Translations under genes and position numbers: made by a program
Virus record (IMG/VR): IMGVR_UViG_3300024239_000176
Coordinates: 1 to 57,494 of that record
DNA from: a virus
DNA length: 57,494 nucleotides
Direction: 5' to 3' (one strand)
The notes under the pieces: generated by a model
The model's input: the letters and a program-made list of their open reading frames with translations, nothing else
What the model was told of the DNA's origin: nothing
Databases searched by the model: none
Part shown: positions 3,001 to 47,100 of the stretch, piece after piece
Numbering within the stretch: position 1 is the first letter of the stretch
How the letters are laid out: the number at the start of each line of letters is the position of its first letter

Positions 3001-3327
3001 TACTCGTTGCACTGCCTGAATATGCTCAGCAACTAACTTAATATCTTCGATGTTATGAGATACCACCACAACATCACTGACGTTGTTAGCAACCACTACC
3101 ACGTCATCAGCAATACCTGAAACGGTAACCACGTTAGTAATCGAATTGGCAACTACAACAATATCGTTTAAATGGGCTACTACGTTTTTGAATCCGTTAT
3201 CATCTAAAATAAGGGTGAGCTTTTTGAGCATCTCCATATTATCAGCCACAAGGACAACTTTATCGTATCCTGTGTTGATATACTTATTAATATCAATAGC
3301 TTTGCCTTTAGGTTTGACTGTTCTCAT
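1..3327 (-). CDS. tail fibre / appendage protein, 3' end beyond window
   Basis: The frame is open without a stop from the ATG at 3327 to the left edge, 1109 codons, so the C-terminal receptor-binding tip is missing. The N-terminal ~60 residues are non-repetitive and probably anchor the fibre to the virion. Next come heptad-like repeats of the type VVxVAxNIxxV (about residues 60-165), then an Ala/Ser-rich coiled coil (about 165-400). The rest is a shaft built from duplicated modules: motifs like FMSAADKTKLD, DTxYTHP and SNGKxLxAGATAGS each occur at least twice. Such repeats are typical of trimeric phage fibres. The ATG overlaps the stop of the upstream gene by one base (TAATG), so translation is probably coupled. 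The gene sits at the position of the N4 appendage gene gp66. Fibre function is well supported; receptor specificity cannot be inferred. Confidence 0.85.
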   Translation of the reverse strand, partial: MRTVKPKGKAIDINKYINTGYDKVVLVADNMEMLKKLTLILDDNGFKNVVAHLNDIVVVANSITNVVTVSGIADDVVVVANNVSDVVVVSHNIEDIKLVAEHIQAVQRVADSANNVDRLALSANALDIVATSVVSVDKVAASIDAVESVSSILSSVVRVSASADNVDIVANDIDAIKAVPTYMTEIRQAVTTTTTNAQTSTTNAASALASKEAASASEIAANASKVASKASQDAAKMSELAAYSSELSSLANAEASEASKTAAKAAETNAIANSTSSYNYSELARGYANAAEVSKGESIQAAADSSTSASASLSSANAAKVSENAAKASQIASKASETAAKASETASKASEVAAKTSENTAIAKATQTAADAVKTGNDVVQSAANASLAEAAKNESQAIAAALTGGIVDKGAWDASTGVFPAKPTRPLPEGGTALVSAFWKVTVAGTAGGISFLVGDDLRFSASTDSFYKVDNTDAVASVQGKTGAVTLSASEVGALAAPTGTFAINKVIVAGSAAGTSQYSPYTIDKSVPSNAVFTDTVYTHPTTDGNLHVPATGTTSNGKALVAGATAGSAAWRALVTSDIGGLAAALDAKLDATANAVSATKLQNTVTINGVAFDGSANITVTAASPFTLTRGTGLTGANYNGAAATTWAVAYGTAAGTACQGNDARLSDARTPLAHAHTIADTTGLQSALDAKYSATNKPTPADIGAQPAGSYSPESHIHSTATTGANGFMSSADKTKLDNIAANANNYSLPAATSAVRGGIEIFSDTVQTVAANAVSATAGKTYGVQVNAAGQAVVNVPWSDTNTVYTHPASGVTVGTYSVVTVDANGHVTNGSNPTTLAGYGITDAAPSSHVGSTGAAHGVATTAVNGFMSAADKTKLDSVASGANNYTLPTATSSAIGGVKVSATAQTVAANAVSATASRSYSIQLDASGNAVVNVPWVDTNTVYTHPTSDGSLHVPATGTVSNGKVLKAGATAGSMSWGSLTAAEVGAAATTHTHAWSDLSGIPIYATRWPTVAEIGAAASSHTHSIANVTNLQSELDGKQPIDTTMGAIVGARYLTAGQGVLGTKIRLPFTTNSRKMVCFTVRVYQSYGAYDIQFSWYLY

Positions 3328-4055
3328 TATGCCCATCCATTTGTATCAACTAAAAGATTAGTGCTGTCCACGCTATTCTGAGATAAATTGCGAGTTTCCA
3401 CTTCAGCACACTTAGCATCGAATAATTGCAATGCTCTTAGAGACTCCGCTTGTGCTTCCTGACTACTTCTTGTTTTATGCACCCTGTAGGTGATGTAATA
3501 CAACAGTGCTTCATACAGGTATACAGGAACGCCAATGACTTTAGCATTCTCATCTATCCCATACTCAATACGATTGGGCGCAGCACGATATATCAAGGAT
3601 ATGGCAAAATCCCCACCAGCAAAAGGCACTTGGATACTCGTATAATCAGGAGTAAAGATAGAGTTATATTCGTTTAGATTGTTGATAGGAATCCTACAGC
3701 CCATTTCATCATAACAATCTTCAATCCGAAGTACGTCTTCTTGGAAAGGAGCAAAGGGGGAATCAACAATATACTTATATTCCTCAGTAGATTCAGCATT
3801 AGTCACAGCAAATTTTCTATCGAAAAAGTACTGAGATATGTGAGGGTATAACTGAATCGTGACTTCTTTTTCACGCAGAGGAAATTTAGTGTACAGAGCA
3901 ATCAATGCAAAATTGAGGTGGCTAATAATTTTGCGTTTAGCCACATCATCTAATTGACCAGCACTGCATTCAGAATCGGAGCCAGTCAAATTTATTTGGC
4001 TTAGCTCCCCGTAGTTTAAATCTTCATAAAGTTGACGTAGGCTGTAGGCAGACAT
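3327..4055 (-). CDS. N4 gp67-position virion-associated protein
   Basis: This 242-residue protein lies between the terminase and the tail fibre in the leftward late operon. That is the place of N4 gp67, a minor virion protein of about 30 kDa. The start at 4055 has a good ribosome binding site (GGAGCTTACCCT). The sequence is soluble, with no membrane segment and no catalytic motif that I recognise. Its middle has several aromatic and proline residues around a PFAPFQ stretch, and its C-terminal third is helical and charged. The stop overlaps the fibre start. The assignment rests on gene order and size rather than on a motif. A head-tail connector or adaptor role is possible but is inference. 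Confidence 0.6.
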   Translation of the reverse strand: MSAYSLRQLYEDLNYGELSQINLTGSDSECSAGQLDDVAKRKIISHLNFALIALYTKFPLREKEVTIQLYPHISQYFFDRKFAVTNAESTEEYKYIVDSPFAPFQEDVLRIEDCYDEMGCRIPINNLNEYNSIFTPDYTSIQVPFAGGDFAISLIYRAAPNRIEYGIDENAKVIGVPVYLYEALLYYITYRVHKTRSSQEAQAESLRALQLFDAKCAEVETRNLSQNSVDSTNLLVDTNGWA

Positions 4056-4084
4056 AGGGTAAGCTCCTTAATAACTTACCCATT

Positions 4085-4110
4085 AGTTTACACTAAGAGT
4101 TTACACTAAG
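4085..4110. repeat. 13-bp tandem duplication at terminase 3' end
   Basis: AGTTTACACTAAG occurs twice back to back (4085-4097 and 4098-4110). The right-hand copy contains the last codons and stop of the terminase gene; the left-hand copy lies in the intergenic gap. It looks like a recent slippage duplication. Confidence 0.8.
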
Positions 4111-5768
4111 TAAGACTCTAATCCTCCGCCTGTTTCCTCTTCATCATTCCCTAGCACCCAACCAATATCAGGGTTATAGCTTTGGGTTTGAGAAGGACTA
4201 GGCTTCCATGCATTCATTACTGTCAGCATGGTAATCAAGTCGCAGGCGTCATCATGTTCAGACTTAAAACCTTCGGTGGTGGCCGAAGACAATTCATCAA
4301 CCATTTCCCTAACCAACGGGTCTTTTTTGTATTCCTCGGGCAGGTAGATAAGTCCCAACTTGAACCAAGGCACAGCAGTAGCGGAGAACCGATGAAACTT
4401 GTTTGAGGTATAACGGATACCCGCAGAACCACCATTGCTGTCTGAAGCCAAGTTAAAAAAGATGTTCCTCTCCACCATCTCACGTTGTATCCATGAGATG
4501 AAGCCTCCTTGTTGCCCTGTCACTTCTACCCCAACTGACTTGGGCGAGTACATTTGACAGAGCTGGAATAGGTCATTGATATTCTTATCCATGGTCTGCC
4601 TTTTGCATATCCCATCAATCAAGAACCACTGCCCAATATGGTTATAGGCAAATACCCCAATAGTACTAAAGTCGGCACTCTCTTTCTCAGATACTGCGAA
4701 GTCTGTCACGATATACACGTTGAAGTTAGAGAGATTGCGGATAAGTGCTGCTCGGGAGAACCAACGAATATCACCATCCTGTACAATACGGTTTTCCTCA
4801 GAAGAAATACGGAGCATAAGCTCTTGGTTAAATGCCCCTATCTCACCGTTGTCCAATAGCGTTTCATACTCGTTTTTCACGAAGTCATAATTGAAACGGT
4901 CTTCCCATGCACCCCTAAATTCCTCCCTTGAACAAGGGAATTTCTCACAGATAGGGTAAACAGAGGTGTGCCATGATGGACTACCTGCTGCTTTATACAG
5001 TGGGTCTTTCTTGTTGAAAGGTGTACCAGTCCAAATGATTTTCCGTTTCCTCGGATGCATCGCTTGACGGGCAGCTTTATAGATAATGTTACGTATGTCT
5101 TTGATAATGGTGGGAGATTCAGCGTTTTTATCCGACATCAAGTCGTCAAAACCACAGAAAGTAGGACGCTTACCATACTCTTTGAATCCCCGTACACCTG
5201 TATTGGCACCAAAGCCCCTGATACAGAAGCTCTTACCGTCAATATTTTTGAATTCCCAACGGGAATCAGTAAATCTTGTATAGGGTATGTACTTTCTGAG
5301 GAACTCAGAGTTGTTATAACGGAACTCCAAGTTATTCCTCATGTTCTTTACACCGTTTTCCATGGTATCGGAGATGTACATTGCTACATCCACTACACCA
5401 AAATCGAAAAACTCACCATAAACAGCAATATAAAGGTAAACATACTCATGTAATGCAGTGGTTTTAGCACTACCCCTGAAGCTCACAAAGAGGTTATCAG
5501 AGTTGGCAATGGCTTGGTCAATCATGTGCATATGAATTACAGGGGATTTGTTCTCTTCCCCCTTAGAACCATTGACTAACTTGATGAAGTTAATGAATTT
5601 GATGGCATTAACGCTAGGCACATAGAGGTTATTCAAGAAATGGTAATCTACCTCCTTGAGCAACTTCTCTAACGACTTGTTAACACTATCATCCTCCTCC
5701 ACTGAGGGGGTGTTTATTTGAGGAATTACCTCCTCAGGAATCTCTTTAACAGCAAGAACGTTATGCAT
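4101..5768 (-). CDS. terL: terminase large subunit (N4 gp68-like)
   Basis: This 555-residue protein is the DNA packaging motor. The ATPase half has a Walker A-type loop SFRGSAKTT (residues 96-104), a Walker B region ending in GFDD (about 206-209), and a coupling motif WTGTPFN (246-252). The nuclease half has the first acidic motif IVTDFAVS (353-360, Asp356) and a late acidic cluster HDDACDL that can supply the remaining metal ligands. The order and spacing fit large terminases. The ribosome binding site is GAGGAATAAAGA before the ATG at 5768. It starts three bases after the upstream gene ends and belongs to the same leftward late operon. N4-like terminases make linear DNA with direct terminal repeats, so this enzyme should cut at the unidentified ends near 6.5-9 kb. 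Confidence 0.95.
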   Translation of the reverse strand: MHNVLAVKEIPEEVIPQINTPSVEEDDSVNKSLEKLLKEVDYHFLNNLYVPSVNAIKFINFIKLVNGSKGEENKSPVIHMHMIDQAIANSDNLFVSFRGSAKTTALHEYVYLYIAVYGEFFDFGVVDVAMYISDTMENGVKNMRNNLEFRYNNSEFLRKYIPYTRFTDSRWEFKNIDGKSFCIRGFGANTGVRGFKEYGKRPTFCGFDDLMSDKNAESPTIIKDIRNIIYKAARQAMHPRKRKIIWTGTPFNKKDPLYKAAGSPSWHTSVYPICEKFPCSREEFRGAWEDRFNYDFVKNEYETLLDNGEIGAFNQELMLRISSEENRIVQDGDIRWFSRAALIRNLSNFNVYIVTDFAVSEKESADFSTIGVFAYNHIGQWFLIDGICKRQTMDKNINDLFQLCQMYSPKSVGVEVTGQQGGFISWIQREMVERNIFFNLASDSNGGSAGIRYTSNKFHRFSATAVPWFKLGLIYLPEEYKKDPLVREMVDELSSATTEGFKSEHDDACDLITMLTVMNAWKPSPSQTQSYNPDIGWVLGNDEEETGGGLESYLV

Positions 5769-5771
5769 TCT

Positions 5772-6488
5772 TTATTCCTCGGTAATTTCTTCGTATTCAG
5801 CCTGAATAATTTTCTGTTCTGCTACTGCTTTAGCATTACCATTACCATCAAGAATACTTTGATGTTGTTGCTGTGCAAATTGAGAAGTTAATTCCCTTAA
5901 TTCACGCATAGCATCAGACTCTTTAACTTCAACACTAAGTTGAACTTTAGCTGCTTCAGGTCTTTTAAGATGCGTTAATAAACTATTAGCTGCATCACTA
6001 CGAACTTTAGGACTAATACTGGTATCCATCATTAAGGATACTTGAACATTAATAGCCTTCTGATAATTCTCCGCATTGATTAACCAAACAGGAACCAAAG
6101 ACTGCTCATAAATTAAGTTTACTAACTTGGATTTATTATAAGCAGATACGTAAGTGGCAATATCTTTTTCAGTTACACCACTATTAACGAAGTTATTATA
6201 CTTCTCAGGGAAGGTTTTTACATAAGCCCTGATATTACTATCACCCATGGACTTATAACTAACATACCTTACAGCATCAATGTACCCTTCTAACTTAAAT
6301 TTACCCTCAGAAAGGACACTTAAATAACCAAAGATATTATCCCGCATCATCTCTGCTGTATGTGGGTCAGCTACAGCCTTATTAAGTTTCTCCATAAACT
6401 CAGGAGTAACCCTAGCCTGTAGCTCTCTAGGGATAGCTTTCCTTACTTCAATCTCTTCAATGACCATCTTTTTGGCTACTTTAGACAT
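5772..6488 (-). CDS. N4 gp69-position protein, candidate small terminase subunit
   Basis: This 238-residue, largely helical, charged protein is encoded directly upstream of the large terminase with a three-base gap. That adjacency is usual for the DNA-recognising small subunit. I see no clear helix-turn-helix signature, so the role is inferred from position alone. The start at 6488 has a Shine-Dalgarno sequence AAGGTAAGAG. It is the first gene of the leftward block, and on the other side the DNA switches to rightward early genes. In N4 the equivalent gene gp69 is close to the right end of the genome. The C-terminal third contains a glutamine- and glutamate-rich tail. Confidence 0.55.
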   Translation of the reverse strand: MSKVAKKMVIEEIEVRKAIPRELQARVTPEFMEKLNKAVADPHTAEMMRDNIFGYLSVLSEGKFKLEGYIDAVRYVSYKSMGDSNIRAYVKTFPEKYNNFVNSGVTEKDIATYVSAYNKSKLVNLIYEQSLVPVWLINAENYQKAINVQVSLMMDTSISPKVRSDAANSLLTHLKRPEAAKVQLSVEVKESDAMRELRELTSQFAQQQHQSILDGNGNAKAVAEQKIIQAEYEEITEE

Positions 6489-6635: not shown

Positions 6636-6775
6636 AAGAATCCATATTAAATATTTACTTAAGCCTATATTTAGTATGTATTTTTCGGCAGGGTGAGCCC
6701 TTATGGTACATTGAACCAACGACAAAGTACATTCAATAAAATTGAATCTCTCAACTAGACAGTAAGGAAAATTTA

Positions 6776-7354
6776 ATGACTAAGTTTAAGAAAAAGCCCG
6801 TCATCATTGAAGCTACTCAATGGTTTAAGAACGGAGACCATCCCCTTGACTACAGTAAGTCACACGATGGATTTGAGGGTGGAAAGCTGCGCGTATGCAC
6901 TGTGGAAGAGCGTAAAGCCAACGGGTGGGAAGGGGATATTGTTAGATACTTTAGAACCCCTGAAGTATCAGGGGAATCCACCTGTAAGCATTGTGGCTTA
7001 ACTATGCATGAGCATGGTTGGATTGATACTTTGGAAGGCGGCCATATAGTCTGTCCTGCTGACTGGATTATCACAGGGGTTAACGGTGAACACTACCCTT
7101 GCAAGCCTGATATATTTGAAAAGACTTATGAGCCTGTGCCTAGCGGGAAACACCAACAAAGTAAAAGTGACATACTCAAATATTTCACTTACGCCCATCT
7201 ACCAGATGCCCTAAAAGAAGTTAGCAAACCGCTATCTGAAATAGCAAGTATGCTGGATGAGTCACTGCCTAACTGTGCTGAAAAATCGGCTGGGTTGCGC
7301 AAACTACTCGAAGCTAAAGACTGTTTTGTACGTGCTAGGATGGAGAATAAGTAA
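6776..7354 (+). CDS. early protein: PGDYG-like domain plus Acb2/Tad1-like C-terminal helical segment
   Basis: This 192-residue protein is the first rightward early gene. Residues 1 to about 120 follow the pattern of phage PGDYG-family proteins: an opening KKKPVIIEATQWFKNGDHP, a CxxC pair, and the block GGHIVCPADWIITGV leading into CKPDIF and YEPV. PADW replaces the usual PGDY/PGDW. Residues about 131-192 form a separate helical segment, HLPDALKEVSKP followed by AEKSAGLRKLLEAKDCFVRA. This repeats the helix-hairpin pattern E/R-K-S-x-x-L-x-x-L-x-E-A seen in small phage proteins related to Acb2/Tad1, sponges of cyclic nucleotide signals used by CBASS and Thoeris. The first domain is recognised by its family pattern; the counter-defence role is inference. 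The start has a purine-rich leader (AGTAAGGAAAATTTA). Confidence 0.6.
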   Translation: MTKFKKKPVIIEATQWFKNGDHPLDYSKSHDGFEGGKLRVCTVEERKANGWEGDIVRYFRTPEVSGESTCKHCGLTMHEHGWIDTLEGGHIVCPADWIITGVNGEHYPCKPDIFEKTYEPVPSGKHQQSKSDILKYFTYAHLPDALKEVSKPLSEIASMLDESLPNCAEKSAGLRKLLEAKDCFVRARMENK

Positions 7355-7405: not shown

Positions 7406-7455
7406 AGAGTTCTCTATTATCCCTATGCCATCGTATAGGCTATGTAGAGAACTCT
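7406..7455 (+). other. two-tier hairpin element
   Basis: An 11-bp outer stem (AGAGTTCTCTA, 7406-7416, with TAGAGAACTCT, 7445-7455) is followed by a symmetric 5/5 internal loop. A 5-bp inner stem (CCTAT, 7422-7426, with ATAGG, 7435-7439) then closes an 8-base loop. It lies between two early genes and lacks a T-tract, so it is not an ordinary terminator. It could be an RNA structure, a protein site, or part of the terminal repeat or packaging site. Confidence 0.6.
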
Positions 7456-7485: not shown

Positions 7486-7528
7486 AATTCCCATAACCAA
7501 AGTAAGTAACCAAAGAAAGGATTTATTT

Positions 7529-7963
7529 ATGACTGAACAAGTAACTAAGCAAGTAACTAAGCAAGTCGATACACAGGCTACACCAATACGTGCTCATTCA
7601 TGCTCAGTGGACTACCTAACCAAAGAGTTAGTAGAGTACATCCTCAATGAGTATGAACCCATGATTAAGGCTCATAATACCGATGATGCTAAACGGGTAT
7701 TACCTCAACACATCATGGATAAGATTGATACCATTGAAATGGTTACTCACGTTACTCTCACAGGTAAGGTACAACGAACAGTTGTAATCAATATGATTAA
7801 TGGATTCGGTGTTACTGGTGAACCTTCTGTCTCTGTTAGTGTTGAGAATGGTAGAAAAGCTATTGGCACTAGAATAGCATTAGAAAATGCTGTTAATAAG
7901 ATATGGCCATTGGAAGGGTATATGAAATGTCAGGAATTATATGAGGCAAATTTAAACAAGTAA
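7529..7963 (+). CDS. Gp49 family protein (N4 Gp49 / Sf6 gene 66 family)
   Basis: The 144-residue product matches the N4 Gp49/Sf6 gene 66 family pattern. It has a central VTLTGKVQRTVVINMINGF stretch, a VSVSVENG turn, and the C-terminal block ENAVNKIWPLEGY. The family is common in phages and has no established function. The ATG at 7529 was chosen over an in-frame ATG at 7472: it has the better ribosome binding site (AAAGAAAGG), and the extra 19 codons would overlap the hairpin at 7455-7485. The N-terminus contains a short repeat VTKQVTKQV. In N4 this gene lies elsewhere (position 49, before the vRNAP gene), whereas here it is among the first early genes. Confidence 0.75.
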   Translation: MTEQVTKQVTKQVDTQATPIRAHSCSVDYLTKELVEYILNEYEPMIKAHNTDDAKRVLPQHIMDKIDTIEMVTHVTLTGKVQRTVVINMINGFGVTGEPSVSVSVENGRKAIGTRIALENAVNKIWPLEGYMKCQELYEANLNK

Positions 7964-7976
7964 TAATTATTTACTG

Positions 7977-8012
7977 AATAGCTCTATAAATAATAGAGCT
8001 ATTTTTTTTTTT
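7977..8012 (+). terminator. rho-independent terminator
   Basis: A 10-bp stem (AATAGCTCTA with TAGAGCTATT) and 7-base loop are followed by a run of at least nine T. It follows the Gp49-family gene directly. Confidence 0.85.
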
Positions 8013-17352: not shown

Positions 17353-17739
17353 ATGAGACTAAACAAAATGAAGAAAGTGATTCTACTGAACAAACATCGT
17401 GATGCTATTCCCCGAGATGCTGTGTACATCGGCAGGGGAACTATTTTAGGAAACCCTTTCAGCCATATTGAAAGTTCCTTTAAGGGCATCACTAAAGTAG
17501 CCTCTAGGAAAGAGGCTTGTGAGGAATATCATAAGCTGTTTCATTCCATCATAGAAGGCAAAAACGATATTCGAAAAGTAACCGTAATGAATCTACTAGA
17601 TAGCTTGGCCGAGAGGCTGGAAGCTGAAGGAGAACTTCACTTGTGTTGTTACTGTGCCCCTAACCAATGCCATGGTGAAACCATTGCAGCCTATTTAGAA
17701 GATAGAGTAAACGGGAAACCGTTATTCAAGGAGCTATAA
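17353..17739 (+). CDS. DUF4326 family protein
   Basis: This 128-residue protein has the DUF4326 signatures: YIGRGTILGNPF near the start (about residues 26-37) and a C-terminal CYCAPNQCHGETIAAYLED, where the CxPxxCHG block is typical of the family. DUF4326 proteins occur widely in phages and are thought to be small nucleotide- or NAD-related binding proteins, though their role is not established. An internal ATG at 17368 is an alternative start; 17353 is preferred because GGTG precedes it at a suitable distance. The stop overlaps the following ATG. A macrodomain gene lies about 2.5 kb downstream. Confidence 0.8.
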   Translation: MRLNKMKKVILLNKHRDAIPRDAVYIGRGTILGNPFSHIESSFKGITKVASRKEACEEYHKLFHSIIEGKNDIRKVTVMNLLDSLAERLEAEGELHLCCYCAPNQCHGETIAAYLEDRVNGKPLFKEL

Positions 17740-18278: not shown

Positions 18279-18752
18279 ATGAAAGTGAAATTGAAATTTT
18301 TACCTAACTGCCTAGTCGATGCCGAAACGCACGAACCTTTACCTCTCACCCGAGGTACTGAAGGTTCAGCAGGTATTGACATCCGTGCTGTCATTCCTGA
18401 AGGGTATGTTACTCTCGAACCTAACACCCCTCCTCTGCTCATCGAAACAGGCATTGCCATCCATATCCAAGACCCTGAAGTCTGTGCCGTGTTAATCCCA
18501 CGTAGCGGCTTAGGACATAAGCAAGGCTTAGTGCTAGGTAACAGCGTTGGCTTGATTGACTCTGACTACCAAGGCGAAATAAAAGTCAGCCTGATGAACC
18601 GTGGCAGTGTTCAGCAAGTAGTGCATAATGGCGACCGTATTGCCCAACTCTTGTTCTTGCCCGTTATCCCTGTCGAATTCGAAACTGTTGAAGATTTCAA
18701 CGAAGAAACCGAACGTAACGAACAGGGCTTCAATTCTACAGGTACTGTTTAA
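18279..18752 (+). CDS. dut: dUTPase (dUTP diphosphatase)
   Basis: This 157-residue trimeric-type dUTPase hydrolyses dUTP to dUMP and pyrophosphate, which keeps uracil out of phage DNA and feeds dTMP synthesis. All five motifs are visible: I SAGIDIRA (30-37), II PRSGLGHK (74-81), III GNSVGLIDSDYQGEI (87-101) with the catalytic Asp region, IV NGDRIAQLL (117-125), and V GFNSTG (150-155; GFGSTG is commoner). Length is normal. The ribosome binding site is AAAAGGAAAACGTT. It stands as a single gene between two terminators, so it probably has its own promoter in 18226-18265. Its codon usage (many TG-, CGT- and CTG-type codons) is less AT-rich than that of its neighbours. Confidence 0.96.
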   Translation: MKVKLKFLPNCLVDAETHEPLPLTRGTEGSAGIDIRAVIPEGYVTLEPNTPPLLIETGIAIHIQDPEVCAVLIPRSGLGHKQGLVLGNSVGLIDSDYQGEIKVSLMNRGSVQQVVHNGDRIAQLLFLPVIPVEFETVEDFNEETERNEQGFNSTGTV

Positions 18753-21464: not shown

Positions 21465-24302
21465 ATGAAAGTAACCAGTACCACCAAAGAAAACTCAGCG
21501 GCTGTAGTAGGCTATCAAGAAGTATCAGAAATGACTCTGGCTAACTCGCCTGAATTCATTGCCATATTCCAAAAGAGCTTATATCAATACCACTCTTTGG
21601 CTATGGTAAGGGAAACTATCACAAACGGTTGGGATGCCCATATTGAAAAGGGTATTGATACCCCTATCCAAATTGACATCACCGATACCATGTTCACCAT
21701 CAAAGACTTTGGTTTAGGTATTCCTCACTCACTAATGGGCAAAATTTATGGCACCATTGGGGAAGGAACCAAATCAGGGGATTCTCGAAGTACAGGCGGC
21801 CTAGGGCTAGGATGCAAATCACCCCATGGCTATACCGATGCATTCGAAGTTATCTCTTGCTGTAATGGCACCAAGACAATCTATCAGATAGTCAAAGCCT
21901 CTAAGCTTACCCAAGGCAGGCCAGCCATTGTAAAAATCATGGAAGCCCCAACCACTGAAACAGGGCTTACTGTCAATATCCCGCTTAAACCTCATGATGC
22001 TAGCACCATCGTTAAGTATGCTCGTAACGTAGTATACAGCGGGGATATTCCAGCAGTGATAACCTTTAAGGGCGCTCCTGATAATGAAATCCGTGGTATT
22101 AATCTGAGCAGAGAAGCCAATGCTTTCACTGTTCTAATGCCAAGTGATGCTATCCAACTGCCTACAGTAGGCAATAGCCTTAACGTGCGTTACGCTAACA
22201 TCGTATACCGTTTCCCCGACCTAGAAGGCGTGGAAAATATGGATTACATCACTGCTTATAAAGAAGTTGTCAGCCTGCTCTCCGTAGTCAAAGACGACTG
22301 TTATGATTATGGATGCCTTATTATTCAAGCTGCCCCTGATTCACTGGTAGTACACCCTAGCCGTGAATCACTGTCCGTAACTTCTGAAAACATCAAAGAA
22401 CTCACTAAATTACTTAACACCTTTATCGAAGGGGTGAAAAAAGCAGAAGAGCCTTTATGGACACTGCTGCCAAAGCACATAGAAAAAGTGATTGATGAAA
22501 CTGATGCAATTATTGGCAGAAGGAAAAAAGAAGGACGCCATGACCGCTATAGTATAGATATTTCTCCATTGCCTAAAGACATGCCATTAACCGTAATGGC
22601 GCAGAAACTTTTTAATATAGCTGATTCTAAATTAAAAGAAACTACTTTAGATGTTGTTCACCGTATCTTGGCGTATAAAAGGGTGGATAGCTATGAAAAA
22701 TTAGCCTTCTGTAAATTGTTCCAATTACAAAATTTAAAGAGCTTTATTAACCCCACTACGATATTTAATCAAAAATTACCTAAAGGGGCTTATTGTGATT
22801 TAAACCTTTTAGATGCAGTAATGAAACAGTTGGGAATTGAATTAAGCGAAGTTCCTAAAAATGATATAATCAATGTGGACTTTTCAGATGTGCTTGAATT
22901 GTCTTATGGCAAAGCAAGAGACATCCAATTCAAACATTACCCTGATAGTTCTGCGTATTTATTGAATCTAACTGCTGCTAATTACCTTGAACACAATATA
23001 GATAGTTCAATGCATGTTATTCCCTTGACCTTGAAAAATGTTCAAAGATTGGGGGAATATAAAGTACCATTGCAAAAAGTGACACCCTTAATGAATAAAG
23101 TGGTAATCATAACTGATGTACTGAATACTACTTTCCGCAGAATTCGTGACAGAATCATGTTTGGAAAATTCAAACATAAGGTGGACACTGTTACCCCTTT
23201 GGTTATCAAAGGGGATAAAAAAGAAGCGGTTCGTAAAGCTTTAATTGCAGAATTAGAAGCTGAAGGATACGAAGTAGTTGATTTGTTCATTAAGAGCAAA
23301 GCAGAACAGCAAGCTCATGACGAGATTGTGAATAAGCGTAAAGCTACTTTAGCTCTGAATAAAGCCAACAAAGTAAAAACTGTTGCGGTTGCCCCACTGC
23401 ATCTTTCAAAGACAGCCAACGATTCAGTGGTGATGGTTGAAATGCCTGCATCTACAGCAGCCCCTATGGAAACCCCTTCTCTATTGCTTCTGTTAAATAA
23501 GAGTGGATTGTTAAGCCCTGAGATGAAAATCTTAGGTGATACAAAATCCCCTTCTATTGATTTATACAAAACTATTTCTGCTTTACAGAAATTAACGAAA
23601 AGTAGTGTATATATCACAAAGCGGGCAGTGGAATATCGTAAATGGCTAAAAGCCAACACTTTGCCAAAAGGGCAAAACAACCATGTTGTATCGTGGATAG
23701 TTGATGCGATTGAAGAGCTTTATAAGCGTGTTAAGTTACCTAACAACTTAGCTGATGCTCTTTATTTAAGTCACTATTGTAGCTCTCTTTCTTCGGTATT
23801 CTTTGTAAGTAATACAGAAGTGGATACCAAGTATGGCAAAATTAAAGTGAGATACGATAAATTTGATTTATTTAGAAGTTGCACCAGTAGGGATGATTTA
23901 TTCATTACTCTGTTGCTAACTGAAAAAGCACATTCGTTAGTTAAACTTAAGAATTTTGCAATCCTCGATGAAAATTCGGAAGAATGTAAATTCTTGCTAT
24001 TGTTAAAAGATATTATCCCTTCATTAAAACCTCTGGTAAATGAGTACCCTGAAGAAATGAAGCGGGTACAGAATATCATTAATGATATAACCAAAAAGAT
24101 GACGTATTCTAAAAGGGTATTAGAATTAGCAGCATTGCTTGAAAATTCAGTGCTGCCTAATTATATCAACTACTCTATGATGAAAACGTTTGCCCAAAAT
24201 AATGAACCTGATGACGAAACCTTGGTTCCTGTCATTAAACTACTGCTAGATAACTTGAGGAAACAACATGGACAACCAAAAGAATCAGCCACGGCTGATT
24301 AA
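21465..24302 (+). CDS. rIIA-like GHKL ATPase
   Basis: This 945-residue protein resembles phage rIIA proteins, including the one at position 25 of N4. The N-terminal GHKL (Hsp90/gyrase B) ATPase domain is clear: N-box RETITNGWDAH (Glu50, Asn54, Asp57), G1 DFGLGIP (Asp81), and G2 GGLGLGCKSPHGYT (111-124). The long C-terminal part, which is more AT-rich, is not recognised. In T4, rIIA with rIIB protects against the RexAB exclusion system; in N4-like phages the role is unknown. The start has only a weak ribosome binding site, perhaps because the HNH gene was inserted upstream. It overlaps the rIIB-like gene by 35 bases. Confidence 0.9.
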   Translation: MKVTSTTKENSAAVVGYQEVSEMTLANSPEFIAIFQKSLYQYHSLAMVRETITNGWDAHIEKGIDTPIQIDITDTMFTIKDFGLGIPHSLMGKIYGTIGEGTKSGDSRSTGGLGLGCKSPHGYTDAFEVISCCNGTKTIYQIVKASKLTQGRPAIVKIMEAPTTETGLTVNIPLKPHDASTIVKYARNVVYSGDIPAVITFKGAPDNEIRGINLSREANAFTVLMPSDAIQLPTVGNSLNVRYANIVYRFPDLEGVENMDYITAYKEVVSLLSVVKDDCYDYGCLIIQAAPDSLVVHPSRESLSVTSENIKELTKLLNTFIEGVKKAEEPLWTLLPKHIEKVIDETDAIIGRRKKEGRHDRYSIDISPLPKDMPLTVMAQKLFNIADSKLKETTLDVVHRILAYKRVDSYEKLAFCKLFQLQNLKSFINPTTIFNQKLPKGAYCDLNLLDAVMKQLGIELSEVPKNDIINVDFSDVLELSYGKARDIQFKHYPDSSAYLLNLTAANYLEHNIDSSMHVIPLTLKNVQRLGEYKVPLQKVTPLMNKVVIITDVLNTTFRRIRDRIMFGKFKHKVDTVTPLVIKGDKKEAVRKALIAELEAEGYEVVDLFIKSKAEQQAHDEIVNKRKATLALNKANKVKTVAVAPLHLSKTANDSVVMVEMPASTAAPMETPSLLLLLNKSGLLSPEMKILGDTKSPSIDLYKTISALQKLTKSSVYITKRAVEYRKWLKANTLPKGQNNHVVSWIVDAIEELYKRVKLPNNLADALYLSHYCSSLSSVFFVSNTEVDTKYGKIKVRYDKFDLFRSCTSRDDLFITLLLTEKAHSLVKLKNFAILDENSEECKFLLLLKDIIPSLKPLVNEYPEEMKRVQNIINDITKKMTYSKRVLELAALLENSVLPNYINYSMMKTFAQNNEPDDETLVPVIKLLLDNLRKQHGQPKESATAD

Positions 24303-28656: not shown

Positions 28657-29742
28657 ATGATTCCGTTAATTTCACACAAAGACGTTCCGAGCTGGTTCTC
28701 AGCAGTTTTATCTTCAGGTCTAAGCCCTATGTTATTAGGCGGTGTAGGTAAGGGCAAAAGCCACTTAGCTCACCAATATGCCGAAGACCGTGAATTACTT
28801 CTGCATACCATTTACCTTGATTCCATGTATGAAATGGACATCATTGGCTATGCTTCGCCCAACAAAGAAACAGGTAAATTTGAATACCTGCCTTGTGGTT
28901 TATTCCCATTGGAAGGTGAACCACTGCCTATTAACCCCAAAACCAGCAAGCCTTATAAAGGTCACTGTATCCTGTTTGAAGAATTTGGTAACTGTCCAAA
29001 GTCGATGCAGGTAGCAGCACAACGGGTAATTCTGGAAAAGTCAGTGGGTTCTCACAAATTGCACGAAAAGACCAGCATTATCCTATTAGGTAACAAAGTC
29101 GATTCTGGTGCTAATGCTCTGCCTATTTCAGCCGCTATCCGTACTCGTTGCGGTATTGCCGAACTCAATACTAAAAGTACTGAGTCAGCTATGGAATTTG
29201 TTGATTACATGAAAACTCACAACTTCCATCCTTCAGTTATTCGTTGGATTGAAGGCAACTATGATTGGGTTATAGTAGAACACCCTGACTTGATTAATGA
29301 TGGTGCATCACCCTTCATTACAAACCGTGGTATTGAAGCCTTATCTAACATCATGCACAAAATGCAGGAATCAGCGGATAAGCGTAATGTGCCATTAGTC
29401 ACTATCCTGCGTAACAAACTGCAAGTGATGCAATCCATCGTTGGTTATGATGCAGGTGCAGACTTCTTTAACTCTGTGCTAGTGCCTTCAGTAGGCTTGG
29501 ATGAAATCCTAAGCTCCCCAACCAGTGCCCAGATAGCTACTACTACTGCGGATACTCTGCGTATTGTCAGCTTCCTAGTAGGCAATGTATCAACCTCTGC
29601 GGATATTGATGCAACCTTGATTTATCTAATGCGTTTAGACCCTGCATTGCGTATGTCTATTGCTAACAAGCTAGTGGTGGCTTCACCTAACCTATTCAAG
29701 GGAACCAAGATAGAAGACCTTCTAACTTTCCCTTCTAATTAA
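28657..29742 (+). CDS. MoxR-family AAA+ ATPase
   Basis: This 361-residue protein has a Walker A GGVGKGKS (residues 28-35), Walker B ILFEEF (105-110), an LLGNKVDSG sensor-1 region, and an RTRC stretch near a sensor-2 position, all typical of MoxR ATPases. MoxR proteins usually act with VWA-domain partners to load metals or remodel proteins. The next gene encodes exactly such a partner. The start has AGAGAGGCTATA upstream. The role in the phage may be to remodel a replication or host complex; that is inference. Confidence 0.88.
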   Translation: MIPLISHKDVPSWFSAVLSSGLSPMLLGGVGKGKSHLAHQYAEDRELLLHTIYLDSMYEMDIIGYASPNKETGKFEYLPCGLFPLEGEPLPINPKTSKPYKGHCILFEEFGNCPKSMQVAAQRVILEKSVGSHKLHEKTSIILLGNKVDSGANALPISAAIRTRCGIAELNTKSTESAMEFVDYMKTHNFHPSVIRWIEGNYDWVIVEHPDLINDGASPFITNRGIEALSNIMHKMQESADKRNVPLVTILRNKLQVMQSIVGYDAGADFFNSVLVPSVGLDEILSSPTSAQIATTTADTLRIVSFLVGNVSTSADIDATLIYLMRLDPALRMSIANKLVVASPNLFKGTKIEDLLTFPSN

Positions 29743-29759
29743 CCTAGGAGATAGTGCAA

Positions 29760-31064
29760 ATGAACCAACAAAAAACAGATAATTTTTTGCGGTCATGCCT
29801 TGATTCCTTAATTGGTAACTTAGATTCAACGTATTATGGACGCATCCTTAGTCATCTACCGATGCTTCCTTACGCTAATATTGACTCCTTTGCTATCAGT
29901 CGAGAAGGGGAATTCCTTTACAACCCTGCTCATGAAGACATAGTGCAAAGGAACAAGATAGCCGTATTACGCTCTATGCTACATGAGGGTATGCATGTGG
30001 CCTTAGAGCACTTTGCCCGTGCTGAATACGCCAAAGTGGAATCTAACGAAGCTCACCAGTACTTCAATATTGCAGCCGATTGTGAAATCGAAAACATTAT
30101 TGATAAGGACTTTCCTTACCTACCTGAAGACAAAAAGCACCATGATTGCTTAAAAAATCATGTAGCTAGGGAAGATTGGGGTAACGGTACTGAAGCTATT
30201 TACAAGTCCTTGTATGCAGGGGATGGGCAACAGGCTAAACCCCCACAAAACCCTACCTCTGTGCTTCCCCAGTTGAGCGATTTAGGCAAACAGCGTATCC
30301 ATGCTGCTACACAAAAAGCGGCCAAAGAAGCGGTTGATGCTATCAATGACAGTGCTATGCAGGAGGCGGGTAAGAATACCCTCAATGACCCTACAGGCGA
30401 GCAAAGCAAAGGCACTGCCAAAGGAACCAGTTCGGTTTCTGATGGCACCCTGAAGCTGCTAGGTATTAAACGCCCTAAGCTCAACTCGTTTGCTGCTATT
30501 GAGGCGCTGTTTAAAAACACCTATGGCAGAGGGGATGCTAAGGACGATAGCACCTTTAACCAACGTCACTTACTTAGAAGAGAGTTCAATGATGAAGCCC
30601 TAATGGGAAGGCATCAAAGACTCGACTCTGAGAAAGAAGGACATGTAACCAAATGGCATAATGACGTAGTGATTTATGCAGACGTATCAGGCTCAATGCC
30701 CGCTTCTGCTGTCACTAAAAGTTTCGAGTTTATTCTCGAACTTGCCTCTCAGTATGGGGTTAGCCCTATCACAGTCCATACCTACAATTCACGGGTACAG
30801 CAGACATTTGTTATTAATTCTAACAGTGATGTGAAATCTCTGAATATTCGTACAGGTGGTGGCACTGATATTGCTCAAGCATTCCGCGAGAAACCTCCCA
30901 CAAACAAACTTGTATTTGTGCTTACCGATATGGAAGACGCACCAGTCAAACAGTGGAAACACAAAGGGGAATTGGTCTGGCTGATTCATCAGAATAGCTC
31001 TACCAACTTCCCTGAATTCGTAGGTAAGCAGATATGCATTAACGACATCATTAAGAAGATATAG
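29760..31064 (+). CDS. VWA-domain protein with metallopeptidase-like motif (DUF2201 type)
   Basis: The start is ATG 29760, with AGGAG upstream, rather than GTG 29754. The 434-residue protein has a zincin-like motif HEGMH (75-79) followed by NIAADCEIENII, then a Gly/Ser/Thr-rich linker (about 155-230). A C-terminal VWA domain follows with the metal-ion-dependent adhesion site DVSGS (308-312) and supporting TGGGTD and TDMED blocks. This is the arrangement of DUF2201 proteins, which partner MoxR ATPases. Whether the HExxH centre is active is unknown; Glu and both His are present. Confidence 0.85.
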   Translation: MNQQKTDNFLRSCLDSLIGNLDSTYYGRILSHLPMLPYANIDSFAISREGEFLYNPAHEDIVQRNKIAVLRSMLHEGMHVALEHFARAEYAKVESNEAHQYFNIAADCEIENIIDKDFPYLPEDKKHHDCLKNHVAREDWGNGTEAIYKSLYAGDGQQAKPPQNPTSVLPQLSDLGKQRIHAATQKAAKEAVDAINDSAMQEAGKNTLNDPTGEQSKGTAKGTSSVSDGTLKLLGIKRPKLNSFAAIEALFKNTYGRGDAKDDSTFNQRHLLRREFNDEALMGRHQRLDSEKEGHVTKWHNDVVIYADVSGSMPASAVTKSFEFILELASQYGVSPITVHTYNSRVQQTFVINSNSDVKSLNIRTGGGTDIAQAFREKPPTNKLVFVLTDMEDAPVKQWKHKGELVWLIHQNSSTNFPEFVGKQICINDIIKKI

Positions 31065-40914: not shown

Positions 40915-41109
40915 ATGTGGAATTTGCTGACAGGTCTTTGGGAACTGTTCTTAGCTATTCTAGTAGTTGCAGTGGGGATAGGACTTATAGTCTTTATCCC
41001 CCTGATTCTCCCTGTTCTTGCCTTAATAGCAGGTATCCTAATTGCAATTCCCCTAGCCCTAGTAATCATCAGGGACATTAGGGGAACCAACAAAGATAAG
41101 GATAGTTAG
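40915..41109 (+). CDS. small two-span membrane protein
   Basis: This 64-residue protein has two membrane spans (about residues 8-30 and 31-53) and a charged end (RDIRGTNKDKDS). It starts ten bases after the acidic protein, with a Shine-Dalgarno like ATAAGTAGGTAACT. It is the last rightward gene; its stop overlaps by four bases the end of the opposite-strand vRNAP gene. No lysis function is proven; it is too short for a classical holin but that remains an option. Confidence 0.6.
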   Translation: MWNLLTGLWELFLAILVVAVGIGLIVFIPLILPVLALIAGILIAIPLALVIIRDIRGTNKDKDS

Positions 41110-44100
41110 AACACCTTGGCTAATGGAAGGGCATTAGCAGCCATGCTAAAACCATCTATTAGTCCAATCTTTCTATTCACATCCACGAACGGAGCAAAAG
41201 CATCTAGCGGGGTAGGTATGTTAATTCCTAACATGTCTGCCCCAACAGATAAGCTTAATACCTTGGCAGGATTCTTCCTGAAACTCTTCACAATAACCTT
41301 CTGCATCCGTATGAAGTACTTAAAGAACCAAGTAATACCCATATCATTTGTGTACTGCATCGCTTTATGTGGGGGTAAGTCGTAGTTAACAAAAGCATCC
41401 ATAATATTTTGAATGGCTTTGTCGTGGCTTACTCCCTCATTATTTACTTGGTGGGTATACAATGCATACCGTGCAGCAAAGTCCGAGAATTGCGTAGCTC
41501 TTCTCAAAAAGTCGTAGGCTATAGAACCCTGTTGGAAAGTAACCTGCTTAAAGGCTTCTTTCACCCCATCAGGAATGGCCGAAGTCACTTCCTCTAACTT
41601 ACCAATTAAGCCATGCTTGAACGAGTACAAGTCTTCTTGGGCGCTGGCATCATCGACAATCGTTTGTAGCATACCTGCATCAATCAGTCCTTTAACTGGA
41701 TTCCTTGCTTGGTCTTGCAACAATTGGTGCAATTTCAAACGCATAGCTGAGGTTGCAATATTGGCATCTACTTTAGCCTGCAAGAAGAATATCTCCTTAG
41801 CATTCTTGTTGTACTCCTGAGCAGCAGTGATAGCTGTTATCTGGTCAGACACCGCTTTAATCGGGTTCACATCGTGGAGCAGGAACAACTGTACTGTGTT
41901 AGACATGAAGTTACTCGCAAGCACCACAACCGATTTAATCACGATAATGTCTTTAGCCTCCTTAACAATCTCCTGAAGCCCTCTTTCACCCATCATAAGG
42001 AACTTGGCTAGGGCTTTGCCATAAATGCTCGTAATGAGCTGATTAAGGGCATTCTTGACCACTTCAGGATAATCATTATTTGGATTCCAAAGATTGGCTA
42101 TAGTCCATTTACGATAACCAAAGGCTGCATTAATCACATCCTTCCTGACATACACGCCTTCTCTACCAAATAAAGCAGTAGCTTCTTTTTGAGCTTCTTG
42201 TGGCATCAAATTCCAAATTTCAGCAAGTTGTTTATCCTTGGCATTAGGCTCAACTAACAAATAGCCCCTAACATTATTGTTCTTTCTGTCATGGCTATAC
42301 TGGTCATAGAGAGCTTTCATTAATGCTGAGTTTACTATTACAGTATTTTTCTTAACGGTAGCACTCGCTGACATAGCCCCAAACACTTGGTCTACCCTGT
42401 TATCCCTTCTGAGTAAAGTATCCTTAACTTCTTGTTTCATAATATAACGATAGTCAATCACTTGTCCTTTGCTGTCAAAGGTAGGGACTAATTCGTTATC
42501 AGCCAAAGGAGGGTTAGGCATGAACAACTTCTGGTTATCAATGGCCTTGCCTCTACGAATCTTGTTAATCAAATCCTTCTGTTTGTAGATAGGTAGGGCA
42601 TTGCCTGCTTGGTTATTAGCATCAAGCACACTCATACCCCGAGCACCTTTACTTGCAAGAGACATTGCTCCTTGCAGGTAAGTAGCTTCGCCCCCGTAGT
42701 TGGACACATACATATACATTGGCTCTGCCACTGGGTCATGCTTATCCTTAACGAGAGGTTCCCCAACCCTTTCATAGTTCTGCATCAGCAGCTCATTTTC
42801 CATACTCTTAGGTGCAATCTGGATTGACATGTAAGGGTCAGTAATGTCTGTGGTATGGCCTTTGACATAGTTGAACTCATTACCTAAGAAGGTGTTCTTA
42901 AGCACTTTGTCTTTCACTACGTTGTGCATAGCCAAAAGGGACTCAACACCGTTTTCCCCTTTACGAGCAGCCTCTCTCTTATACAGATTGCTCATCATCT
43001 GTAGTTGCACAGGGTCAACCAGTTGCAAGGCTTCCAGAGTAATCAAGGAATCTACCATAGTCCTAACTTGCATACTCGCATTGGGATTAGGTTCACCAGT
43101 ACCGAACAGAGTAACGATAGTTGCAGCGTTACTCATAACGTGGCCTCGGTACTTCTGATAGCCTCTAATCATCATGTGAGCAGTGTTCTTGGCTTGGTTA
43201 ATGAAATACTCATCTGTGCCTTTTGGTGCCTGTTGGCGTATAGCCACTTGCAGCCTAGTCGCCTCATTTTTAACAGCTAGAGGGTTATTCAAGAAGTTAG
43301 CAATTTGAGCAAAGCTATAGCCATTAGTTAATAAGCTGGATAAGTCAGGAGCTATCAGTACTTTAGTAGCAGCTACACTTTCTTTATCAGTAAGCTCTTT
43401 ACCAAACAAGGATTTTACCAATTCAGAAGTATTGGTTTTAACGTTCACTGTCTCTTGGTCGATTAGCTTGTTCTTCGTTGCCAGCAAACTATGAATACGG
43501 ATATTGCTATCATCAGTCCCTTTTAGGTCTGTCCATAAGGCAGATACAAATCCCTCACGACCCGTAGTCATAAAGTTCTGAATGGTATCCAAACCGAAAG
43601 CGAATTCACTTGCTCTACGTTCACTGAGTACCACACTAGAAAGAGTTACAGCAGCATTTAGTATTCTGCGTTTACTCACTTTCTTTTTCATTTTATCGAA
43701 TGCTTTATCAATCTTAATACGACTGAATTCATTCACAGTATTCAGTACTTTAGAAGCAAACTTAGCAGATTTAATAATCTTACTTTGTAGTTTATTCTTC
43801 TCTTTAATTTCTCTGTGACGAATGTTCTTAGCCAATTTGTCTAACTTAGCCAACACAGTAGGTTCATGTGAACGAGTGATAGCTAAGTCATTCAAAAAGT
43901 TTAAGATAGCTTCAATAATATTTTTAAGAGTGTCTCTAACAGTTTCCCCTCTGATAGCTTTGCTTACCGCTGGTGGAGTGGTTAGAGTAGCCAATCTTTC
44001 CCTGAACGCTTCGTTAGTAGCAGCCAAGGCCATGAAGTTACGCAGATAATCATTAGTCTGAGTATTGGCAAATACTGCATTGTATCTTGCCCTAGCTTCA

Positions 44101-47100
44101 CTTTCAGAACGTGCTCTATCTGCCTCAGTATCAAGTACACTGTCCTGTCCAATAAAGTCACGCCAGCTTAGATTCTTCTTAGCATGGGCGTACATCCTAC
44201 GGATTTCACGGGTATTCCAACCAAAGTCATTTAAGGCTGAACCAATGATAGTGCTATAGGTTGCATAGACCATGAGTTCTTGGTCACTTACACGGAAGTT
44301 GAGAGCAGTCAACAAACCAAAGTCTTTACGAATTTCAGGGTCTAATGCATGAAGTAAAGCAGCATCCTGAGAAGATAAAGTTTTAGCATTATCAGGGATA
44401 ACCAACAGAGTAGGGTTAATGGCCTTGATAACAGCCTTATTTAATACCTCACGTAGATGGGCATCATGGCTTGCAGTAATGGTATTAGTGTTGCTTTTGG
44501 CAATATGGTCATAGATTTGGTTTAAGTCCATATAACGTGTAGCATCATGAGCCACTTGAGGAGAACTTGCTATAGTGTTATCTAGTGAACTCCGTACCTC
44601 AGTGCCTGCTTTACCAATAACCATGGCATCAGCAAGTAAATCAAGAAGCATGTTTGAATCTTGAGTTTTCAGCCCGAGCATCAATTTCAATTGGGTAACG
44701 ATAGCCTTAACAAATGCCCTAATACGGGTTGGTTGTTTACTTAACAAACCCCTGTTTTTAGCATTGGATAAGCCCCATGCAATAAACTCTTTAATGTTGG
44801 CTGTAGAGTCAGCATCTAAGAATTCTTTAGCCTTAGCTCGCATCTGTTCAATGTGCTTATAGGCACTAAGCTCTTTAACTGTATGGCCTCCATTCACACC
44901 TTGAGTGAGTTGTTTTTCGATACTGGTTAGTCTGCTATCCAAAGCCGCATGAATTGCCTCATGCAAAAGTGTTTCAATAGCCACGCCTGAATTAGGGGAG
45001 TGAGTACCTTGCAAGTAGATGACCTTTTCATTGGGTTCCCAATAACCGTATAGGGACTCTGTGCTCATCTCGCCTAGTGAAGTAGCAATCACTTTCTGTT
45101 CATTGGCACCTAAGATTCTTACCTGAATATTCGAACCACGAAGATTACTCAGTAATTCCCGCATTGCTTTAGCAGTACGAATATCTGTGAGGTCTTTCAA
45201 ATTATTCAGAATATCGGCAAGAGGGAACTCAGTACGGCCTGCAATGATAGCTTCTAGCTTAGGCTCTACCGTGGCAACACTTGGTGTCTCTGCTTGAACA
45301 GGAGGTAATACAGCTTCTAAGTTAGCTAAAGTCTGGTCAATATCTCCTGTTAAAGGTTCCGTAGAGTCCATCACTGTTTCAATGATACGGGTCTCTAAAG
45401 AGGCTTGGGCATTAGCCGCTTCTTCCATAGTGAAGTCACGTACATCCTGCTTCTTACCATTAGCAAACTTAGCCCCACCAGTAACGGAACTGAATTGGTT
45501 TACGCTAAGTGACTTGTACAGCACTTGCTTAGCTTCTTGACTTTGCTTATGGGCAGCAGTCATACGAGCATTCAAGTTGTCTATGTAACGCACAAGCATA
45601 TCAGGAGTAAATGACTGAGCCACTTCAGCATCTTCAAGTGCAATTGGTTTGCCATCGCTATTTTTGTAATGGGCTTTACCATTGATAAGGCTTAACCCAT
45701 CAGAGTAATGAGCCACAAGCACCTTATGGGCTAGAGCATTAATTTCAGGAGAGTAAGTTTTACTTACTCCACTTTGCATAAACTCTTTAGTGGCTTCCTG
45801 TAAACGCTTACTCACTGTGCCCAACAGATTATGGTAAGTCACTGCTTCATAAGCGGATTCGTTTAATGCTGTAGCAGTATTGGCTACGTTAGCAATACGG
45901 GTTAACCGAGCATCGAATACGTTTAATCCTAGTGGCTCATCTGACTTATATGCTGCTCTAGCCATGGTTGTAGCATCACCGAAGGCGATGTTTAGAATAG
46001 CCATAGTACCAGCAGCAGGAGCTTCGTAACCATCGGTATAGGAGTAGTTGCTTCCTCTGTGGCCTAACGCAGAACCAAGATGGAATGCAGCTTTCACATC
46101 TTTATCCGCATTACTTACATTGCTAGTGCCCGAGTATTTGGCAGTCATTACCCCGTTACTGATGTTACCGTAAAAAGAATTGAATACGGGCATAGTATGG
46201 AGTAAGGAATTTTTAATCTCATCCAATTGGTCTTCAGACAAGTAAGCGTAAGTGCTTAACTTACCTGCACTTCTCAATTCAGCTAACTTTTCTTTAATCT
46301 TGGTTTGATACAAAGCATTGAACATATCAAAGATAACGTTACTGGTTTCAGTGACCAATGCAGTGTTATCTAATTGTTTAGCATACTCATTAGAAATTGC
46401 TTCGTTGACAATGGCACCCAGCGATTTACTGAATGAGTACTTAATACCCTTAGCAATGAAAGAGTTAAATTCAAATTCCATCATGTTACGAGGGAAGATG
46501 ATTCTCATACCCGCAAGAGTACTGATGTCCTGTTTCAACTCATTCAATGCTTGAACATCATTAGCTAAAACAGCTTTCTCAACGGCATCTAATAGGTTGT
46601 CCATGACCTTATCTGCCATCTTATCACTACGGCTTTTAGCACCCGATGCATACACAGTAGTAGTAATAGGGTTCTTGACAAAGTTACGTCCTTCAGACGT
46701 AGCAGCCAAATCCCCTTCGATAGTTTCCTTAACTAATTCCCCTGTGTATTTCTTGAAAGTAGCCAAAGTACCAAGCATATCTTGGTTAGCTGAATCCTCA
46801 ATCCATACTTGTTCAGCTACGTTAGCTGCAACAGCCGTTGACTGGTACATATCCATATTACCAGCACGGTTAATCCATTCGTTGTATGTCTCAGTACCAT
46901 CTAAGAAGAACCCACTCTGAGCTAAACGAATACGAGAAGTTTCAGTTAACTTACCATTCTGCATAGCCAATCCCATTTGGATATGGGCGTTAGCTACACC
47001 GTTAGTCACACCATCAAGCTCAAGAGTTACTGTGGTATTGAATTTACCCTCAGTAGCCATAAGCATTTCGGCCAGACCTGTTAACGATTTCAGGGAATGG

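Follow-up and report, generated by a model that had tools for sequence, protein, structure and literature searches.

Does a small gene on the plus strand of this viral DNA encode a composite protein that blocks bacterial immune signalling? The window, by which we mean the whole stretch of DNA analysed, comprises 57,494 nucleotides of IMG/VR record IMGVR_UViG_3300024239_000176. The gene in question starts with ATG, encodes 192 amino acids and is the first plus strand ORF past long minus strand ORFs at 3327-6488 (Table 1). An initial annotation, made from the letters alone, proposed that a two-domain anti-defence protein could lie here, with a PGDYG-family domain at the N-terminus and a helical hairpin like that of Acb2 and Tad1 at the C-terminus. 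Both peptides that it quoted are present in the translation, and the boundary that it drew between the domains emerges also from independent matches of the fused protein to PHROG profiles. The profile phrog_419 covers residues 1-130 (E 2.6e-32), with phrog_1761 and phrog_5120 covering residues 118-191 (E 2.3e-28) and 126-191 (E 5.6e-22), respectively. A fourth profile, phrog_1454, matches more weakly, with E 4.4e-4 for the fused protein and 6e-5 for the hairpin fragment alone. The PHROG collection names no function for any of these four families.

Table 1. Features of the fused gene, the gene that follows it and the surrounding DNA
Feature	Coordinates	Strand	Basis and remarks
AAGGA, Shine-Dalgarno-like	6764..6768	+	7 bases upstream of the fused-gene ATG, read directly
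Fused gene, 192 aa, PGDYG-like domain and Acb2/Tad1-like hairpin	6776..7354	+	ORF, PHROG matches
N-terminal PGDYG-like domain, residues 1-121, PHROG 419/4502/1810	6776..7138	+	beta-rich, profile and model
Cys/His motif C70-x2-C73-x6-H80-x12-C93	6983..7054	+	alignment of 47 sequences; candidate zinc site
Linker, residues 122-129	7139..7162	+	low pLDDT block, without secondary structure
C-terminal domain, residues 130-191, short helix and two long antiparallel helices, PHROG 1761/5120	7163..7348	+	
Perfect 11-nt inverted repeat, 28-nt spacer	7406..7455	.	between the fused gene and the Acb4-family gene
Phage_gp49_66 (PF13876), Acb4 sponge family	7529..7963	+	E 9e-12, 45.8 bits against a cut-off of 27
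Terminator-like stem-loop and T run	7976..8004	+	directly after the Acb4-family gene; consensus scan

The Pfam PGDYG family (PF14083) scores 15.0 bits against the window protein, below the cut-off of 27, and the best of six relatives scanned, in locus L135, reaches 20.6 bits, also under that cut-off. The model of the N-terminal domain is beta-rich with pLDDT values above 90 in most blocks, and a Foldseek search of BFVD returned 29 matches at E<=0.001, several of them named PGDYG protein, with probabilities of 0.99-1.00 for the PGDYG proteins and modest TM-scores. On these models the domain is predicted to share the fold of viral PGDYG proteins. The likeness to PGDYG has the support of the PHROG profile and of the BFVD matches but falls short at the Pfam cut-off. 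A structure search of the PDB with the same model gave no match below E 0.2; weak matches on a second look were to SH3- and tudor-like barrels, with Z about 3 to 4.

What sets the window domain apart from PGDYG is an insertion carrying cysteine and histidine residues. Cys70, Cys73, His80 and Cys93 are invariant across 47 aligned N-terminal domain sequences and may form a zinc site. The invariant or near-invariant polar residues of the domain are Asn19, Asp21, His22, Asp25, Arg57, these four and Lys110. By eye, several of them are missing from L216 and L186, two PGDYG-like relatives that lack the insertion. In a literature search with limited reach into subscription papers and current preprints we found no published role for PGDYG (PF14083), and among the papers listed on sponge fusions no title points to a fusion with PGDYG. 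A query with both domains matched 1,115 of 50,697 isolate-phage records, hairpin matches included. SPO1-like phages were among these and we considered whether the N-terminal domain might be Acb4; this was rejected as the Acb4 paper places that protein in PF13876.

The C-terminal hairpin was modelled separately, since the full-length model was built from N-terminal domain rows only, which lowers confidence in the hairpin there; one alignment spanning both domains was dropped because the aligner placed hairpins onto the N-terminal domain. The fragment of 68 amino acids, the numbering of which becomes that of the fused protein on addition of 124, is modelled as a short helix at 8-13 followed by long helices at 20-39 and 44-66, with a mean pLDDT of 92.7. 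Its relatives occupy 279 candidate stretches in viral contigs, and among the best 80 of these, the loci that we examined, most are free-standing genes of about 62 amino acids. The fragment also matches 365 of 50,697 isolate-phage records. In a 30-member alignment the window hairpin is 56-69% identical to the other 29 rows, and the invariant residues include Phe13, His17, Pro19, Glu45, Lys46, Arg51, Lys52, Glu55, Lys57, Asp58 and Arg62.

Is this hairpin that of Acb2 and Tad1? The Pfam family concerned, PF24729, does not match the window protein at E<=10. None of 30 hairpin members passes its cut-off, five matching weakly (best E 0.074), and none of ten divergent isolate-phage members does so, one matching weakly at E 0.011 and 16.4 bits against 27. 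T4 Vs.4 passes readily (E 7e-20) and a gene in locus L105 scores 42.9 bits. The hairpin of the latter and 20 relatives, which were not scanned singly against PF24729, constitute our Acb2/Tad1-type set.

Comparison of profiles does reveal a relationship between the families. Aligned with hhalign, the first sets of window-type and Acb2/Tad1-type hairpins gave a probability of 70% and E 4e-5, and with broader sets (105 and 65 sequences, respectively) the probability rose to 88%, the score being 32.2 at E 3e-6. Among 200 control profiles with shuffled columns the highest score was 19.0, and a reversed profile scored 12.8. An HMM of the 21 Acb2/Tad1-type hairpins matches 121 of 173 window-type hairpin ORFs at E<=10, duplicates included, 32 hairpin ORFs being matched at E<=1e-3, and it produced no non-hairpin match at E<=10 in 26,401 ORFs outside its own loci. 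The hairpin of the window itself is absent from the 121. On profile evidence, then, window-type hairpins and the Acb2/Tad1 hairpin are distant homologues, a statement that applies at the level of the family.

Structure comparisons are less discriminating. A sequence search of the PDB with the window protein found no Tad1 chain, and a search with the window-type profile put 'Acb2 homolog 43' in third place (E 0.98). Foldseek with the hairpin model found nothing in the PDB below E 2. Of 82 chains compared with the model, Tad1 chain 7uav_C ranks 11th (Z 5.4, rmsd 2.5 over 45 residues), a score that generic helix pairs reach as well. Acb2 chains are missing from the structure match lists and their absence excludes nothing. 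The profile and structure check proposed at the outset divides. The families are related by hhalign and the Acb2/Tad1-type HMM matches most of the hairpin ORFs, but no PDB match stands out by sequence or by Foldseek and the HMM misses the hairpin of the window.

There are likenesses to known sponges beyond the profiles. A review (PMC12043709) describes Acb2 as one short and two long helices, and this order is common to the model of the window hairpin. By eye, the pattern K-L-x-E-A-x5-R-A is shared with T4 Vs.4, an Acb2 protein; Vs.4 and Acb2 of Pseudomonas phage p26 are among the nearest known systems. The hairpin of the window is shorter and falls below the PF24729 cut-off, and where Vs.4 stands alone at 88 amino acids the window hairpin lies behind a PGDYG-like domain. 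The resemblance to Acb2/Tad1 claimed by the initial annotation holds for the helix order and for family-level homology, though not at the Pfam threshold. The same review describes Tad1 as a hexamer with separate pockets, built from a beta-sheet at the N-terminus and paired helices at the C-terminus. A beta-rich N-terminal domain followed by a helix pair is a general plan common to Tad1 and the model of the window protein. The N-terminal part of the window protein displays no similarity to Tad1, and the Cys/His motif sets it apart.

The two domains are rarely found in a single ORF. Among the 80 N-terminal domain loci listed and 159 hairpin loci, the combination occurs in the window and in contig IMGVR_UViG_3300035670_000150, with identical proteins, so that the PGDYG-hairpin fusion belongs to one phage lineage only among the loci examined. 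Few of the 1,115 matching isolate-phage records were read for this count and a further fusion there is possible. In five loci (L084, L085, L108, L115 and L138) tblastn had suggested a hairpin as an adjacent gene past the stop of the N-terminal domain gene; on inspection none was downstream. Matches of this kind occur in Rhodococcus phages as well, outside the five loci inspected.

The hairpin is attached elsewhere to different partners, which invites the explanation that it is an oligomerisation or tethering module only, a mobile add-on that multimerises any attached domain, with the activity residing in the N-terminal domain and directed perhaps at a target other than immune signals. It follows a P-loop-like stretch in L254 (2273-2698, in a contig of 265,635 bases) and a zinc-ribbon-like, DnaJ/anti-TRAP-like zinc stretch in L353 (765-1133), both identified by weak Pfam matches, and a further unrelated N-terminal part in L354, in addition to the PGDYG-like domain in the window. 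In L220 it stands ahead of WDGH (PF25311, E 1.1e-37) and Tad2-like (E 9.2e-24) domains in a single ORF. We consider this explanation unlikely. The free-standing gene of about 62 amino acids that predominates among the hairpin loci read points to a function without a partner, many of the invariant residues (from Glu45 to Arg62 in the list above) are charged, beyond the apparent need of a plain scaffold, and the hairpin occurs near separate sponge genes, as described below.

Two observations concern these partners. The source of L353 is Ochrobactrum phage vB_OspP_OH, in which the gene is annotated as anti-TRAP domain-containing. The N-terminal stretch in L354 (1959-2381) has the form GYLVEY...YISWSPK...F..AY, and the same stretch lies ahead of Tad2-like domains in L233 (1349-1906) and L015 (3147-3677). 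As it precedes either, the hairpin and the Tad2-like domain look like swappable C-terminal parts. By eye, the end of this stretch resembles the end of PGDYG (YPCKPDIFEATYE).

The surroundings of the fused gene provide evidence that the initial annotation did not mention, namely an anti-defence neighbourhood made up of an Acb4-family gene next to it and of sponges near its relatives elsewhere. PF13876 is the Pfam family of Acb4 according to the Acb4 paper (PMC11722364), which also reports that SPO1 Acb4 binds 3′3′-cGAMP, as do eight of eight Acb4 homologues, and that, with two CBASS operons tested, it rescued phage T4 against one of them. The PF13876 scan used the ORF from 7472; the ATG at 7529 is the preferred start because AAAGGA is present at 7516-7521. 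Given the terminator-like stem directly after the Acb4-family gene, this gene and the fused gene may form a two-gene unit and might be co-transcribed, with the qualification that three terminator-like sites were found in 2 kb against 1.3 expected.

Similar associations are observed in other phages. Among the 80 N-terminal domain loci listed, the domain is fused to a Tad2-like domain (PF11195) in L091 (E 8.5e-23) and L135 (E 5.1e-25), and in L091 an Acb4 gene (E 3e-32) comes directly after the fusion. A gene directly upstream of the N-terminal domain gene encodes Tad1 in L106 (PDB Tad1, E 3.3e-18) and an Acb2/Tad1-type hairpin of PF24729 in L105. In L093 a PF24729 gene (48.4 bits) lies two small ORFs upstream; it is Acb2-like by eye only, a PDB sequence search with it having found no Acb2. 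An Acb4 gene is 6.5 kb from the N-terminal domain gene in L130. When 50 of the 79 records besides the relative of the window were scanned for sponge families, Tad2-like was present in two, PF24729 in three and PF13876 in two; 44 of the 50 have none of the three. Protein WCZ55007.1 of Latilactobacillus phage TMW 1.2272 P1, a 'hypothetical protein', also has the PGDYG-like and Tad2-like arrangement, its domains having been assigned by eye and from a tblastn match that covers 96%. Bacillus phage SP8 was examined as a further PGDYG-Tad2 neighbour and rejected, the upstream gene not being PGDYG-like by eye. Approached from the other side, five of 89 Acb2/Tad1-type hairpin loci have flanks in which the N-terminal domain profile finds a match. 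These are L163 (L105 is on that contig too), L186, L166, L169 and L170, with one identical pair among the last three.

Around the window-type hairpin, L233 has consecutive ORFs for Tad2-like, Acb4 and hairpin proteins, L216 has consecutive hairpin, Tad2-like and PGDYG-like genes, and L242 has a hairpin::WDGH gene and a Tad2-like gene, with a PGDYG-like gene, matched weakly, farther along. In the 98 hairpin records surveyed for sponge families (48 and 50), Tad2-like occurs in 11 and PF13876 above cut-off in four, together in 14 records; 84 have no Tad2-like or Acb4 match. Acb4 is thus a companion gene or neighbour of both window domains elsewhere and Tad2-like a fusion partner or neighbour of both. 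A Pfam scan gave no sign of homology between either window domain and PF13876 or PF11195.

How close are these genes to the hairpin? In ten of 15 cases the Tad2-like or Acb4 domain is fused to it, lies in the adjacent ORF or is no more than about 600 bp away, comprising seven of 11 for Tad2-like (G099, G100, G102, G104, G117, G126 and G013) and three of four for Acb4 (G105, G117 and G001, the relative of the window). The remainder are at 2.8 kb (G125), 2.3 kb (G147), 36 kb (G045), 15 kb (G046) and 3.5 kb (G143), and a sub-threshold PF13876 match about 80 bases from the hairpin in G128 was left out of the counts. For random placement with a 1.5-kb target the p values are 6e-12 over the whole record and 1.6e-6 if the genes are confined to a 12-kb accessory region, figures that lack adequate unrelated control genes, use an adjacency limit picked after the data had been seen and concern occurrences that are not fully independent. 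Under the same reservations, eight of 13 cases remain without the relative of the window and one near-duplicate (p 3.7e-9 and 4.3e-5, respectively), and in the N-terminal domain records, with PF24729 added, the sponge gene is fused or lies within these same limits in six of seven (p 1e-7 and 2.7e-5). A control set around the ORF at 18279-18749 was discarded, having 12 loci of which one is the relative of the window; at these loci no neighbour was matched by our home-made profiles.

The hairpin family is not confined to anti-defence islands, as other relatives lie beside structural or lysis genes. In Rhodococcus phage Perlina a standalone hairpin gene immediately follows the major capsid gene (L344, 1971-2204), in Gordonia phage DelRio another is one gene past the major capsid gene (L347, 1977-2195), in Brevibacterium phage AGM2 a third immediately follows a holin gene (L352, 1989-2183), and Vibrio phage 1.183.O has a relative near amidase and holin genes. 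With such neighbours the hairpin may have roles other than anti-defence. These relatives would also suit the explanation that the product is a small accessory protein, structural or lysis-related, and that proximity to sponges merely reflects the crowding of small, non-essential phage genes. Against this are the direct fusions to Tad2-like domains, a nearness to sponges that exceeds the null for a 12-kb accessory region, and the profile homology to Acb2/Tad1-type hairpins, and we judge it quite improbable.

We return to the composite protein, and rate as somewhat better than even the chance that the product of the fused gene is a modular nucleotide sponge with which the phage counters host defences. 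In such a candidate the C-terminal hairpin, distantly of the Acb2/Tad1 type, would probably form oligomers and contribute to pockets in which cyclic nucleotide or cyclic ADP-ribose signals are bound. With the signals soaked up, CBASS- or Thoeris-like effectors would not be switched on. The PGDYG-like beta domain would be a partner module, one seen again with several unrelated sponges, and probably adding a second ligand-binding surface, a role modelled on the N-terminal beta-sheet that accompanies the C-terminal hairpin of Tad1. The fused gene adjoins the Acb4-family gene and may be transcribed together with it. It is the general plan shared with Tad1, as given in PMC12043709, that leads to the reading as a composite sponge. 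The computed basis consists of the division into two domains, the remote relationship of the hairpin family to Acb2/Tad1 and the gene neighbourhoods; from it we infer oligomerisation, ligand binding, the identity of the signal, the role of the N-terminal domain and co-transcription. The proposal of a two-domain anti-defence protein is strengthened in part, though not proven: the two domains and the sponge neighbourhood speak for it, the missed PF24729 cut-off and the failure of the HMM to match this particular hairpin against it.

A newer point is that the PGDYG-like domain is fused to, or near, Tad1, Tad2-like, Acb4-family and other PF24729 genes. This raises the tentative suggestion, which we think may well not hold, that the PGDYG-like domain has a counter-defence activity of its own, either binding nucleotide immune signals or altering them, and has been shuffled by phages with the hairpin, Tad2-like and other modules into composites that disarm several signalling defences together. 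On that still tentative footing the window would present a PGDYG-hairpin composite beside an Acb4-family sponge. That the N-terminal domain is instead enzymatic, breaking down or modifying signals of the ADP-ribose or cyclic-nucleotide type, with the hairpin concentrating the ligand for it, has in its favour the conserved polar residues, the recurrent pairing with the Tad2-like family and the precedent of phage RyR-domain proteins that degrade ADPR-based signals (reported in a 2026 preprint, PMC13232231), but is very unlikely given that searches of Pfam and the PDB with the window domain gave no significant match to an enzyme and that, by eye, several of those residues are lost in the relatives without the insertion.

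If the fused gene does encode a modular sponge then two phage families of unknown function, the hairpin and the PGDYG-like domain, acquire a testable role. Phages would then be assembling anti-immune proteins out of sponge modules that can be exchanged for one another, and fusions could guide the search for more domains with a counter-defence role. The mechanism of the N-terminal domain would tell which signal the composite proteins target. Possession of such a protein may carry a penalty. The defence system Panoptes is activated by Acb2, and nucleotide binding by Acb2 appears essential for this (PMC12657218); Panoptes activation would be a cost of carrying an Acb2-like sponge.

Other genes in the window include a single minus strand ORF of 3434 amino acids at 41106-51410, about one fifth of the window. 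On the plus strand, 28657-31064 encodes what we take, by eye, to be a MoxR-type AAA-ATPase and, after it, a protein whose DVSGSMP motif is VWA-like. A 945-residue protein at 21465-24302 (+) has weak matches to HSP90/gyrase-type ATPase domains, below cut-off at E 0.003-0.005, and the ORF at 17353-17739 (+) matches DUF4326 (PF14216) with E 7e-14.
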